From Candidatus Eremiobacteraceae bacterium (GTDB lineage Bacteria > Vulcanimicrobiota > Vulcanimicrobiia > Eremiobacterales > Eremiobacteraceae), in NCBI GenBank assembly GCA_036511855.1, contig DATCBN010000004.1, positions 1 to 64,000 on the forward strand: a stretch of 64,000 nt of DNA, written 5' to 3'. Of this stretch, positions 28,490-33,595 are shown piece by piece. The notes under the pieces are model-generated. The model was not told the DNA's origin, did no database searches, and saw only the letters and a list, made by a program, of their open reading frames with translations. The number at the start of each line of letters is the position of its first letter. Position 1 is the first letter of the stretch. The position numbers were made by a program, and so were the translations under genes.

Positions 28490-28735
28490 GTGACCTACGT
28501 CATCTGCCAGCCGTGCATCACCGTCAAGGACAAGTCGTGCGTCGACGTCTGTCCGGTCGATTGCATCCACGGCGGCGACGAAGACGAGCAGCTCTATATC
28601 GATCCGAGCACCTGTATCGACTGCGGCGCGTGCGTCGCCGCGTGCCCGGTAACCGCCATCTACGCCGAGAGCGAAGTGCCGGCCGAGTGGACGAACTTCA
28701 CGAAGATCAACGCCGACTACTTCGACAAGAAATAA
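28490..28735 (+). CDS. fdxA: seven/eight-iron type ferredoxin
   Basis: An 81-residue soluble electron carrier with an excellent AGGAGG ribosome site before its GTG. It shows the FdxA pattern: an N-terminal cluster with CQPC ... CVDVCPVDCI and a second with CIDCGACVAACPVTAI. The spacing of the first motif, with one extra Cys pair, matches bacterial 7Fe ([3Fe-4S][4Fe-4S]) ferredoxins. It has a C-terminal helix rich in acidic and aromatic residues. The convergent formate dehydrogenase operon is a possible partner, though that enzyme probably uses NAD. Confidence 0.9.
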   Translation: MTYVICQPCITVKDKSCVDVCPVDCIHGGDEDEQLYIDPSTCIDCGACVAACPVTAIYAESEVPAEWTNFTKINADYFDKK

Positions 28736-28745
28736 TCTCCAATTT

Positions 28746-28803
28746 GTATTAGGGCAAGCATCGCTCGCCCAAAAAACGGGGCAAGCGATGCTTGCCCTAG
28801 TAC
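28746..28803. repeat. family A palindromes, convergent pair between fdxA and the fdh operon
   Basis: A rightward copy at 28746-28770 follows the ferredoxin stop; a leftward copy at 28779-28803 follows the last formate dehydrogenase gene. On the minus strand the second is followed by CGTTTTTTG, a terminator-like T-run. The two palindromes are separated by only eight bases. Confidence 0.88.
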
Positions 28804-28819
28804 GGTCGACCTCGTACAA

Positions 28820-29650
28820 CTAGGTTTTGGGTTTGACGAATTGCCAGCCGAAGCGGCCCTTTATGCATAGGTGGCCGTTGGTCACGTCGTGATCGATAGG
28901 TGACGAGACCTTGACGATCTCGCCGTCTTGAGCGTGCACGGTGAGCGTGCACCCCACGCCGCAGTATCCGCAGATCGTGTCGGTCTTCACTTGGCGTGAT
29001 TCGTCCCAAGTGCCGGCCGCGCGCATCTCGTGCTCGGATGTGAACATGAGCGCGCCGGTCGGGCAGACCCCGATGCAATTTCCGCAATAGACACACGCCG
29101 AATCGGGCAGTGGAACTTCATATTCGGTGGCGATGTGCGCGTCGAAACCACGCCCGGCGGTGGCGATCGCAAACGTGTTCTGCGCGTCGGTGCCACAGGC
29201 TTCCACGCACTTGTAGCACAGAATGCATTTCGAATAGTCGCGGACGTACAGCTCGTTGTCGACCTTGACCGGCTGGGCAACCGTTCGCGCCTGCTCGCCG
29301 TAACGCGCCGGCTTTGCATCGTAGCGCTGCATCTGGCGCTGCATATCCGCGGCGAGTGAGACGTCCACCGAGGATGCGAGAAACTCCAACACCATGCGGC
29401 GGCTCAGCCGGACGCGCTCGCTGTCGGTCTTCACCTTCATGCCGTTCTCGCATTTTCGAGAACAGGCGGGCACCAGCGTGCGCGCGCCCTCCAGCTCGAC
29501 CACGCAGACGCGGCACACGTTGACCGGCGTGAGATTTTCGAGGTAGCACAACGTCGGCGTTTCGACGCCTTGCGCGCGGCATGCGTCGAGAATGGTCGCG
29601 CCGTCGGGGACCGTGACGGCAACGCCATCGACCTGCAGTTCCACGCTCAT
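28820..29650 (-). CDS. formate dehydrogenase Fe-S subunit: detached N-terminal half of FdhA
   Basis: A 276-residue protein. Domains in order: plant-type [2Fe-2S] ferredoxin (CYLENLTPVNVCRVC ... C, about residues 36-64), a linker, two [4Fe-4S] sites (CILCYKCVEAC at about 140 and CVYCGNCIGVCPTG at about 185), then an isolated molybdopterin-oxidoreductase Fe4S4 domain (CGYCGVGC ... CIKGRFGWQF) that ends the protein. In NuoG/FdsA-type subunits this is followed by the molybdopterin domain; here that part is a separate gene, 31510-33420. The usual His/Cys motif for a further [4Fe-4S] cluster (HxxxCxxC) is absent from the linker. The start overlaps the fdhB stop (ATGA). Confidence 0.88.
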   Translation of the reverse strand: MSVELQVDGVAVTVPDGATILDACRAQGVETPTLCYLENLTPVNVCRVCVVELEGARTLVPACSRKCENGMKVKTDSERVRLSRRMVLEFLASSVDVSLAADMQRQMQRYDAKPARYGEQARTVAQPVKVDNELYVRDYSKCILCYKCVEACGTDAQNTFAIATAGRGFDAHIATEYEVPLPDSACVYCGNCIGVCPTGALMFTSEHEMRAAGTWDESRQVKTDTICGYCGVGCTLTVHAQDGEIVKVSSPIDHDVTNGHLCIKGRFGWQFVKPKT

Positions 29651-31506
29651 GCCTGATGCCGTCCTGCGAATAGATCGAATTTCGCGATCGCCGATTCGAT
29701 CGCGCTCGAGGCCGTTTGCCCAAGTCCGCAGATCGACGCGTCGCGCATGACCTGACCGATTTCGGCGAGCAGCCGCCGGTCCGCCGAGCCCGCGTCCCCA
29801 TCCCCACCGGCCGCGAGGCGATGCAACAGCTCTTCTTGACGCACCGTCCCCACGCGGCACGGCACGCATTGCCCGCACGATTCGTCTTTGAAGAACGCGG
29901 CGATGCGCCGCACGATGACGCGAAGATCGACCGTCTCGTCGAAGATCATGATCACACCCGAGCCCAACGTGGCCCTGATCGCGCGAACGCCGTCGAACGT
30001 GAGCGGCGTATCGAGCTCATCGGGGGTGACGAACGCGCCGGCGGCTCCGCCCAGCAGCACCGCCTGCAGGCGCTTGCCGCCGCGCACGCCTCCGGCGAGA
30101 TCGAGCAAGGCGCGCAACGTGATGCCGAACGGCACCTCGTATAGTCCTGGGCGCTCTGCGTGACCGGAGATGCAGAAGAGTCTTGTGCCGGTGGCGTCGG
30201 CTGTTCCCGTTGCGGCGAACGCCTTGCCGCCGTCCTGCACGATGTCGAGCACGTTGACCAGCGTCTCCACGTTGTTGATGATGGTTGGTTTTCCGAAGAG
30301 ACCCTTTTGCGCGGGGAATGGCGGCTTGTTGCGCGGTTCTCCGCGATAGCCTTCGATGGAATTGAAGAGCGCCGTCTCTTCGCCGCAGATGTACGCGCCG
30401 GCGCCGCGGCGGATCTCGATGTCGAATCGCAGACCATTGCCCATGATCTCGTCGCCGAGCAGGCCGTGATCGCGCGCCTGGCTGATGGCGCGCTCGAGCG
30501 CGGCCCGCGCGCGGGAATATTCGCCGCGGACGTAGATGAAGCCGCGCTCGCACCCGCCGGCAAACGCGGCGATGGTCATCGACTCGACGATGGCGAATGG
30601 GTCCTCTTCCATCAAGATCCGGTCTTTGAACGTTCCCGGCTCCGATTCGTCGGCGTTGCAGACAAGATAATGCGGTCGTTCAGGTTCACGCGCGACCGAT
30701 TCCCATTTGCGGCCGGTGGGGAATGCCGCACCACCGCGTCCGACCAATTTGGAATCGAGCACCTCGCGAATGACGCCCGCCGGACCAAGTTCCAGCGCGC
30801 GGCGCAACGCGTTGTATCCGCCGGCGGCGCGATAATCATCGAGACTTGCCGGGTCTATGTGACCGATCCGGCGCAGAAGACGCAACCCCGGATCGCCATA
30901 TTGCGGCAGCGAGACCCGCGGCTCGTAATTGATGTCGCGCCGTCCGTCGAGCGCCTTGCCGATGTCGCTCTCAAGCGCAGGTGCTATCGGCTCTTCGTGA
31001 TGGTCGGGCCCGGCGACGGAAAGCATGGCTGCCGGCGCTCGTTCGCACAAACCCAAACACGGACTTCGCAGCCACGTCGCACGGCCCATTCGCGACGCAG
31101 CGCCCAGCGCCCGTTCGGATCGCTCGAGTTCGCCGCAGAGGTCGGCCGTCGCAAGGCACGCGATATCGTCGCAGACGTGCACCACTGTCGGCGGCCGCTG
31201 CTTGGTGGCGAACAGCCCGTAGAAGCTCGCCACGCCGAATGCTTCGGCGGGCGGTATCGTGAGCCGGCGGCTTATGTGATTGAGCGCGCCTTCGCTGATC
31301 CAACCGACCCTGTCGGCCAGCGCGTGCAACGCAGGAAGCAAAAGGTGGCGCTGGTCGCGGGCCGATTTTCCGCCGGCGGCGAAATGGCGATCTGCGGCAG
31401 TGCGCTCTCGTCCACCCGTCCAGCCGGATGCCGCTTCGCCCAACAAAGCATCGACCGCCTCGCGCTCCTCATCGGTTGGCTGAGCGGATGTGAAGTGGAG
31501 GTCCAA
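29647..31506 (-). CDS. fdhB: formate dehydrogenase NADH-binding subunit, NuoE-NuoF fusion
   Basis: A 619-residue diaphorase subunit. Residues about 20-165 are a NuoE-like thioredoxin fold with the [2Fe-2S] ligands CDDIAC and CLGLC. Residues about 200-600 are NuoF-like, with the FMN loop GRGGAAFPTGRKW, the NADH loop GAGAYICGEETAL and the [4Fe-4S] site ESCGQCVPCR ... C. It passes electrons from formate to NAD+, or the reverse. It starts three bases after the catalytic fdhA gene and overlaps the detached Fe-S gene by four bases, giving the transcription order fdhA, fdhB, Fe-S subunit. Confidence 0.92.
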   Translation of the reverse strand: MDLHFTSAQPTDEEREAVDALLGEAASGWTGGRERTAADRHFAAGGKSARDQRHLLLPALHALADRVGWISEGALNHISRRLTIPPAEAFGVASFYGLFATKQRPPTVVHVCDDIACLATADLCGELERSERALGAASRMGRATWLRSPCLGLCERAPAAMLSVAGPDHHEEPIAPALESDIGKALDGRRDINYEPRVSLPQYGDPGLRLLRRIGHIDPASLDDYRAAGGYNALRRALELGPAGVIREVLDSKLVGRGGAAFPTGRKWESVAREPERPHYLVCNADESEPGTFKDRILMEEDPFAIVESMTIAAFAGGCERGFIYVRGEYSRARAALERAISQARDHGLLGDEIMGNGLRFDIEIRRGAGAYICGEETALFNSIEGYRGEPRNKPPFPAQKGLFGKPTIINNVETLVNVLDIVQDGGKAFAATGTADATGTRLFCISGHAERPGLYEVPFGITLRALLDLAGGVRGGKRLQAVLLGGAAGAFVTPDELDTPLTFDGVRAIRATLGSGVIMIFDETVDLRVIVRRIAAFFKDESCGQCVPCRVGTVRQEELLHRLAAGGDGDAGSADRRLLAEIGQVMRDASICGLGQTASSAIESAIAKFDLFAGRHQA

Positions 31507-31509
31507 CGA

Positions 31510-33420
31510 TCAGTCTCCCGCGATCGACGCTACGGGCGTGAGCTTATCGATGTGAACGGCCGTCGCCTTGAATTCGGCCGTACCCGATTTCGGATCGTTC
31601 GCTTCGATCGTCAGAAAATTGGAAGCGACATCGAAATGAAAGGTCATGAAAGCCAGGCCGGGCCGCAGGGTCTCGTCGACACGAACCTTGACCTCGACCG
31701 CACCGCGACGCGATCGCAGACGCACGAGCTCGCCTTCGGCGACGCCGTAGCGGACGCAATCCTCCGGCGAGAGATCGAGACTCTCGCCGCGCCGCAGCGG
31801 TGACGAATACGCCGCCGTCTGCACGCCGCTGTTGAACGAATCGAGCCGGCGGCCGGTGGTCAGCAGCAGCGGATATTCGTCGTCGATGACGTCGACGGGC
31901 GGTTCATGCACGACTGCATGGAACGGGGCGCGCGGCCCGCGGAGCGGCTCTTCCCACAATCGCGCGTGCAGAAAACGCTCGCCCGGATGGTTCTCGTCGT
32001 AGCACGGCCAGCGCAGCCCGTTGTTCGCCTCCAAACGCGCATACGACATGCCCGCGTGCATCGGGCTTAAACTGCGGACTTCGTTCCAGATCGCTTCGGC
32101 GGTAGGCGTGCCCCAATCCATGCCAAGGCGGCCCGCCAATGCGGACACGATATCCAGGTCGTCGCGCGCGCTTCCTGGCGGGTCCACCGCTTTGCGCACG
32201 CGCTGCACGCGCCTTTCGCTGTTGGTGACCGTGCCTTCGGCTTCGCACCAGCCGGCGGCGGCGGGCAGCACCACGTGCGCGAGTTGCGCGGTGCGTGTCA
32301 GCGTGAGATCTTGCACGACGAGGTGATCGAGCGACGACAACAGATGTTCGGTGCGATGACGGTCGGCTTCCGAAACCGCCGGATTCTCGCCGAGCACGTA
32401 GAGCGAATGCAATTCGCCGCGCTCGATCGCGTCGAACATCTCGTTCATGCGCCATCCTCGCTGCGCCTGGAGCTTCACGCCCCATGCGCGCTCAAATTTC
32501 GCACGCGCTTCGTCGTCGGCGAGCGGTTGAAATCCGACGAGGCGATCCGGTATCGCACCCATATCGCCGCCGCCCTGCACGTTGTTCTGGCCGCGCAGCG
32601 GATTCAACCCGCTTCCGTAGCGGCCGACGTGGCCGGTCAAGAGCGCGAGATTGATCAGCGCCAAGACGCTGTCGGTCGCGTTGTGATGTTCGGTGATGCC
32701 AAGCGTCCAACAGATCATGGCGCGATCGGCGCTTGCATACGCGCGAGCCAATCGACGGATCGCGTCGGCGGGCACGCCCGTGATTTCCGCGACGCGGTCC
32801 GGATCGTAACCGTTCAGCGATTCGCGATACGCTTCAAACCCACTGGTCGCGCGTTCGATGAAGGTGCGGTTCTCGAGCCCGAGATGCAAGATCTCATGCG
32901 CGATCGCGTTGGAAAGCGCGATGTCGCTGCCGACGTTCACGCCCAGCCATTCGTCGGCCCACTGGGCCGTGACCGTGCGGCGCGGATCGACCACGTACAA
33001 CGAAGCGCCGCGACGGATGGCCTTGAGAACGCGATGAAAGAAGATCGGATGCGTCTCGCGCGCGTTCGACCCCCAGAGTATGATCAGGTTGGTCTCTTCG
33101 ACCTCCCGATACGAGCTGGTGCCGCCCCCGGCACCGAACACTGCCGCCAGACCGGCGACGCTAGGAGCGTGTCACGTGCGGTTGCAGCTGTCGATGTTGT
33201 TGCAGCCTATGGCGACGCGGACGAACTTCTGCGCCAGGAAATTCAGCTCGTTCGAAGCCTTCGAGCAACTGAACATCCCGACCGCGTTCGGCCCACCCTT
33301 TTTGACCGCTCCGGCGAACCCGGCGGCAGCCCTATCGAGCGCTTCGTCCCATGTGGCAACCCGCAAATGATCGCCGTCGCGAACCAGCGGCTCGGTAAGG
33401 CGCGCGGACTGTCCCTTCAT
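31510..33420 (-). CDS. fdhA: selenocysteine-containing formate dehydrogenase catalytic (molybdopterin) subunit
   Basis: A 636-residue protein read through an in-frame TGA at 33174-33172 (residue 83). The flanks, NNIDSCNRT before and HAPSVAGLAAVFG after, are the exact active-site context of FdhF/FdhA, where Sec binds Mo or W. The residue after it is the catalytic His. Without the TGA the frame is open from ATG 33420 to 31510. The molybdopterin-binding and C-terminal dinucleotide-binding domains are complete (LWGSNARETHPIF, CWTLGITEHHNATDS, LNPLRGQNNVQGGGDMG, LLTTGRRLDSFNSG). The normal N-terminal Fe4S4 domain is missing; an in-frame TAA two codons before the ATG rules out an extension. That domain is encoded downstream, at the end of the operon. 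Confidence 0.93.
33143..33174 (-). promoter_or_regulatory. Sec UGA codon and bacterial SECIS-like hairpin
   Basis: The UGA codon is at 33174-33172. Eighteen bases further in the message comes a hairpin with 5' arm GUCGCC (33159-33154), apical loop GGUCU (33153-33149) and 3' arm GGCGGC (33148-33143): six pairs, one of them G-U. The GGUCU loop and the 18-base distance from UGA are the same as in the Escherichia coli fdhF SECIS that binds SelB. The element overlaps coding sequence, as in other bacteria. Confidence 0.88.
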
Positions 33421-33595
33421 GCGTTACCCCTATGGAGTTATATGATGAAGTCGGCCTTCGCGGGGCCAAATATTCGCCCCTCCGGCAGCGCCTAAGGGGC
33501 TAGCTTGCCCTCGCCGATATTATGTATACAGCAAGTCTAAACGACAAAGCCGGCCGCCTCCCCGATGCGGCCAGACGGGGTTCCGATTTCCTCCA
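33421..33595. other. divergent intergenic region with a hairpin/pseudoknot candidate
   Basis: Between fdhA (leftward) and the EAL gene (rightward). It holds GGCCGC (33552-33557) and GCGGCC (33567-33572) as a perfect stem; the loop contains CCCC (33560-33563), which can pair with GGGG at 33577-33580 to form an H-type pseudoknot just before the EAL start. A TATACATAAT-like stretch near 33525-33535 could serve as a -10 region for fdhA. There is no repeat of families A or B. Confidence 0.35.

Follow-up and report, generated by a model that had tools for sequence, protein, structure and literature searches.

Gene Content of the Locus

Examination of the minus strand of the 64-kb window, i.e., the whole stretch of DNA analyzed here, revealed a three-gene operon (33420-28820) encoding, in this order, FdhC, a NuoE-NuoF fusion (NuoEF) and FdhN (Table 1). 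FdhC and NuoEF are separated by a gap of 3 nt, and the NuoEF and FdhN genes overlap by ATGA. In a preliminary description of this DNA, the first gene had been read as a frame running from an ATG at 33420 to 31510, with a TGA at 33174-33172 as the sole interruption. This reading was confirmed, the frame ending with a TGA at 31512-31510, as were the residues listed around the internal TGA, which lies in the context DSCNRT-U-HAPSVAGLAAVFG. The consensus scan that supplied the two weak entries in Table 1 returned two terminator-like stems, as compared to 4.1 expected in shuffles.

Table 1. Features of the formate dehydrogenase (FDH) operon and its flanks, listed in the direction of transcription.
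Feature	Position	Strand	Basis
Promoter-like site upstream of FdhC (weak)	33519..33547	-	Consensus scan only, 9/12
FdhC, predicted Mo/W-bisMGD and Sec part of the split FDH alpha subunit, 636 aa with UGA read as Sec	31510..33420	-	TIGR01591 51-672; PF00384, PF01568; AF2 model
UGA codon for Sec (U83; U140 in E. coli FdhH)	33172..33174	-	TGA at 110/110 loci; E. coli fdhF compared
bSECIS stem-loop GUCGCC-GGUCU-GGCGGC, six pairs, 5-nt loop, 18 nt past the UGA	33143..33159	-	Pairing, loop, codon conservation, covariation counts, E. coli fdhF match
NuoE-NuoF fusion, predicted diaphorase subunit with [2Fe-2S], FMN/NAD site and [4Fe-4S]	29647..31506	-	PF01257, PF01512, PF10531, PF10589; PDB relatives
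FdhN, predicted detached N-terminal part of FDH alpha with one [2Fe-2S] and two [4Fe-4S] sites ahead of the Mo-proximal Fe4S4 domain, which contains Lys264	28820..29650	-	PF13510, Fer4, PF04879; TIGR01591 1-49; FdsA 25-302; invariant cysteines; ATGA overlap
Terminator-like stem with T run just past FdhN (weak)	28779..28797	-	Consensus scan only; well placed

NuoEF combines a NuoF-like FMN/NAD subunit bearing a [4Fe-4S] site (PF01512, PF10589) with a NuoE [2Fe-2S] domain (PF01257), and its PDB relatives include the FDH beta chains 6vw7_B, 6tg9_B and 7e5z_B. In FdhN, NuoG/HoxU-like sites for one [2Fe-2S] and two [4Fe-4S] clusters precede a terminal Fe4S4 domain that carries the FDH-type motif CxYCGVGC...CIKGRFG. 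The cysteines for the one [2Fe-2S] and three [4Fe-4S] clusters are invariant, as is Lys264. The structure model of FdhN was of low confidence.

Two further observations concern the downstream part of the locus. On the plus strand (28490-28735), a gene encoding an FdxA-like ferredoxin faces the end of the operon; it occupies the same place in the host family (four loci) and had no match in the examined f3-family loci. In addition, the FdhN of many relatives contains a variable insert with a GHH motif in the place taken in FdsA by the His/Cys ligands of the dimer-interface cluster (e.g., L066:11764-12648, L094:11841-12731 and L109:11932-12828), an insert that the FdhN of the window does not contain.

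Division of the Predicted Alpha Chain between Two Genes

The 636-residue FdhC product matched the Fdh-alpha model TIGR01591 with an E-value of 4e-196 over model positions 51-672 of 672, scoring 653 bits against a curated cut-off of 666. A Pfam domain search found PF00384 and PF01568 in this chain but not the Fe4S4 domain PF04879. Since the frame has a TAA stop two codons ahead of the ATG at 33420, nothing is hidden in frame upstream of FdhC. The idea of a concealed upstream Fe4S4 domain was thus rejected, the domain being found on the downstream ORF instead. In the AF2 model of FdhC alone (pLDDT 81), the protein has an FDH fold, with a TM of 0.90 to MeFDH1, E. coli FdhH and FdsA.

The two genes tile full-length alpha chains. 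FdhN covers positions 1-49 of TIGR01591, with FdhC covering the remainder from position 51, while in FdsA (6tg9_A) FdhN corresponds to residues 25-302 and FdhC to residues 307-931. As FdhC has no Fe4S4 domain and that very domain ends a separate gene, the FDH alpha chain is, judged from domain content, split at the Fe4S4/Mo-domain boundary, with the two halves swapped in operon order around NuoEF. The preliminary assignment of FdhC as an FdhF/FdhA-type catalytic subunit therefore holds insofar as FdhC is an Fdh-alpha with Sec; the protein is, however, the Mo/Sec part of a split subunit rather than the whole.

The UGA Codon and Its SECIS Element

FdhC homologues at 110 loci, 60-77% identical at the protein level, keep the reading frame and present TGA at codon 83 in every case; a TGT or TGC, sought in these near relatives as the preliminary description had proposed, was found in none. 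This conservation and the strong TIGR01591 match show that the open frame did not arise by chance. The stem-loop directly behind the codon is similarly maintained. All six pairs of the stem are canonical in the 98 distinct sequences (98/98) drawn from the 110 loci, with C-G/U-G/U-A exchanges at one pair, U-A/U-G exchanges at another and one double change from C-G to G-C. The GGUCU loop is present at 108 of the 110 loci, and E. coli fdhF has the identical loop at the identical distance from its UGA. The two exceptions, both Rokubacteria, have GGGCU.

Codon usage agrees with this picture. When 44 conserved, high-degeneracy codons near the UGA were compared, the three least variable were the SECIS codons GTC (99%), GGT (98%) and CTG (100%), even though GGT accounts for merely 14% of the glycine codons in FdhC-type genes. 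The hairpin (-10.4 kcal/mol, 6 bp, 5-nt loop, 18-nt spacing) falls within published bSECIS limits (PMC13188914). Its folding energy was not above chance when compared with shuffles and, as energy alone fails to separate the element from shuffles, conservation was used as evidence. An Rfam search of the SECIS region returned no match. It is via this stem-loop that SelB and tRNA-Sec would read the FdhC UGA as Sec.

Selenocysteine Machinery of the Host

The sel genes are absent from the window, as had been noted earlier; the assembly (3.07 Mb, 96% complete) carries them on contigs other than the one analyzed here. The search for selA, selB, selC and selD that the preliminary description had called for recovered all four genes, bearing out its expectation of a Sec system in the host. 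The tRNA-Sec (anticodon TCA) scored 70 bits, above the Rfam cut-off. SelA (521 bits) is encoded directly upstream of SelB (309.5 bits with its neighbour in the frame) on contig C88, and SelD (370 bits) is encoded on contig C61. Together with conservation of the TGA and the SECIS element, these genes strongly support the view that the in-frame UGA of FdhC is a genuine selenocysteine codon rather than the mark of a broken gene, in agreement with the preliminary description. In the host phylum, selA was detected in 121 of 149 genomes, more than have the split FDH, so that the Sec machinery is probably not maintained for the split FDH gene alone.

Distribution of the Split Form

The FdhC-NuoEF-FdhN order, the UGA and the split are common to all Eremiobacterota relatives whose contigs reach far enough. 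A GTDB-wide scan yielded at least 589 confirmed relatives, of which the best 80 loci were examined, and the same order, UGA and split were seen in these wherever the contig reaches. In both the host phylum and the best 80 GTDB loci, the HoxU/NuoG-like N-terminal cluster domain is, wherever visible, encoded by a separate gene rather than fused to the Mo chain. An alpha chain of the ordinary, fused form is found in some other classes of the host phylum (three genomes). Scrambling during assembly was rejected as the source of the gene order, given that the identical order appears in unrelated assemblies.

According to database record titles, which may be wrong in the case of bins, the best 80 loci span about eleven phyla, including Chloroflexota, Acidobacteriota, Actinomycetota, Gemmatimonadota, Planctomycetota (among them the isolate Aquisphaera insulae), Myxococcota, Rokubacteria, Dormibacterota, Thermomicrobiota, Spirochaetota and Eremiobacterota. 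The host itself is placed in Eremiobacterota by its nearest named relatives. Phyla are partly interleaved in a tree of 81 split-type chains, with 18 label changes for 11 groups, which suggests, yet does not prove, transfer. A search for close relatives on plasmids found none, the best match being 43% identical.

At six Chloroflexota loci, 1-7 kb of unrelated sequence lies between FdhC and NuoEF, breaking up the operon but leaving the split in place. When the intervening DNA of some Chloroflexota was checked for maturation genes, the ORFs tested contained unrelated domains or had no Pfam match. An additional and different FDH-like gene, truncated at the end of the locus, occurs at L029 (minus strand, ~1202 to 1); it has its own Fe4S4 domain and an in-frame TGA in a Sec context (ARV*HGPTVVSLAASFG).

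Proposed Enzyme and Alternative Readings

The UGA, the sel genes, the SECIS element, the split, the domain and ligand content and the conservation of these can be read directly from the DNA. The operon very probably encodes a cytoplasmic, NAD+-dependent, Sec-containing FDH of three chains, the active site of which would be completed in trans. The most likely form, we infer, is a heterotrimer with an MeFDH1-like cofactor chain and an active site drawn from two polypeptides.

In such an enzyme, FdhC would house a bis-MGD-bound Mo or W coordinated by Sec83, FdhN would contribute the Mo-proximal [4Fe-4S] cluster, two more [4Fe-4S] clusters and one [2Fe-2S] cluster, and NuoEF would provide a [4Fe-4S] cluster, FMN and the NAD site. 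Electrons from formate would thus leave the metal for the clusters of FdhN and, by way of the NuoEF cluster, reach FMN and finally NAD+. By ligand content, this direct chain from metal to FMN is complete, and the ligands of an off-path dimer-interface cluster are missing. Complex formation, the electron path, the reaction direction and the metal are predictions drawn from these features. FdhC and FdhN would derive from a single ancestral alpha chain, divided in two where its Fe4S4 and Mo domains meet; as such, a composite active site is expected, with Sec83, His84, Arg276 and Gln278 coming from FdhC and the [4Fe-4S] cluster and Lys264 from FdhN. The E. coli FdhH counterpart of Lys264, Lys44, is essential, most of its replacements leaving <0.23% activity (PMC12176258).

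It is improbable that FdhC is instead part of a Sec molybdoenzyme of the same fold that uses another substrate or acceptor, or that mainly reduces CO2, despite its best PDB sequence match being FdhF of the hydrogen-dependent CO2 reductase. The Sec, His, Arg and Gln of the FDH active site (U83, H84, R276 and Gln278) are invariant in 44 FdhC sequences, and Fdh-alpha is the best curated model for FdhC, some 250 bits ahead of assimilatory nitrate reductase, both of which argue against this reading. The FMN diaphorase partner also argues against it, pointing to NAD.

Still less credence can be given to FdhN and NuoEF together being a diaphorase that also serves another enzyme, with FdhC being paired with a different Fe4S4 protein. 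While FdhN does resemble the N-termini of HoxU and HydA, and neighbouring genes need not be partners, FdhN is found in FdhC genomes, beside FdhC, with no other 69-100% identical FdhN appearing among the matches listed. Moreover, its cluster motif is of the FDH type, the two halves meet at a single boundary, and the genes encoding NuoEF and FdhN overlap. Finally, a nonsense mutation or miscall might have produced the TGA in a Cys enzyme, FdhN then being what is left of a broken alpha gene. The assembly is a draft of 112 contigs, and an in-frame stop and a missing domain are to be expected of a decayed gene. This notion is scarcely credible and already refuted by conservation, the TGA, SECIS element and split being alike at 110 loci from independent assemblies, the catalytic and cluster ligands being invariant and the host having complete Sec machinery.

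Maturation and Significance

The preferred reading of the operon as encoding a three-chain Sec FDH raises the matter of maturation, as known FDHs need FdhD for this process. No match to the FdhD/FdsC sulfurtransferase was found in the host genome, which counts against the preferred reading, nor was FdhD detected in nine other members of the family that have the operon. Most operon-containing f3-family Eremiobacterota have FdhD, often adjoining FdhN. In one member of the host family, FdhD is present and a split FDH match is absent. The host-family FDH neighbourhood offered no candidate for an FdhD substitute, the neighbours encoding DNA polymerase I, MFS, DUF2064, CAAX protease, ferredoxin, EAL/GGDEF and histidine kinase proteins. 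It is possible that the FdhD of the host family is too diverged for detection. Further points against the preferred reading are that the sole MobA match in the host genome scores below the curated cut-off, that the SECIS folding energy does not exceed that of shuffles and that the FdhN model is of low confidence.

Tentatively, and with rather less than even confidence, it can be proposed that the operon represents an undescribed and widely transferred class of Sec FDH, with an active site common to a Sec chain and an Fe4S4/Lys chain, that in the host family would be matured without FdhD, via another sulfurtransferase or none. Sec FDHs as such are known. The split, permuted alpha chain conserved across many phyla is a variant of which we could not find a description in the open-access literature, and no report of a split FDH alpha or of a Sec FDH in these phyla was found there, most subscription papers lying outside the search.

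Among catalysts for turning CO2 into formate, Mo/W FDHs hold a leading place. With its Mo/Sec part and its Fe-S wire on separate proteins, a natural enzyme of the split type would be a ready-made modular system, allowing one to ask how a Mo-proximal cluster is supplied in trans, while the apparent absence of FdhD from one family turns maturation into a testable question. No bacterial selenoprotein is more widespread than FdhA (PMC13188914). The predicted split Sec enzyme is carried by hundreds of genomes, mostly of uncultured organisms, in about eleven phyla; gene callers will truncate its Sec chain at the UGA, and its FdhN half may be annotated as a fragment of NuoG or of a hydrogenase.

Comparison with Known Systems

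The cofactor set predicted for the split FDH is the same as that of MeFDH1, the NAD+-dependent W FDH of Methylorubrum extorquens (7vw6, 7e5z). The alpha subunit of MeFDH1 is, however, one chain of 989 aa (989-995 aa in PDB entries), as opposed to two chains whose genes flank that of beta. The metal ligand also differs, being Cys in MeFDH1 and Sec in the split FDH. MeFDH1 alpha holds three [4Fe-4S] clusters and one [2Fe-2S] cluster, its fused NuoE-NuoF beta holds FMN, one [4Fe-4S] and one [2Fe-2S] cluster, and the enzyme is without an off-path dimer cluster (PMC10869683).

RcFDH (FdsABGD) of Rhodobacter capsulatus (6tg9) has the same direct electron path as predicted for the split FDH. Here too, the alpha subunit, FdsA, is a single chain, and FdsB and FdsG are separate, unlike the NuoE-NuoF fusion. 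FdsA has Cys386 and a His-ligated cluster at the dimer interface (PMC7171172); in a sequence comparison, FdhN was found to be without the His/Cys ligands of this off-path cluster.

Like FdhC, E. coli FdhF (FDH-H; 1fdi, 1aa6) has Sec, His and Arg in its active site, and shares the SECIS loop and spacing, as well as the fold, with FdhC. In contrast, FdhF has its own Fe4S4 domain with Lys44, both of which are found on another polypeptide in the split FDH, and is not NAD-linked, unlike what is predicted for the latter.

A precedent for the division of a catalytic chain of this superfamily into two subunits is offered by FwdB/FwdD of the formylmethanofuran dehydrogenase of Methanothermobacter wolfeii, where the C-terminus is replaced by an additional subunit (PMC7171172). 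Whereas it is the C-terminal domain that is detached in that enzyme, in the split FDH it is the N-terminal Fe4S4 domain.
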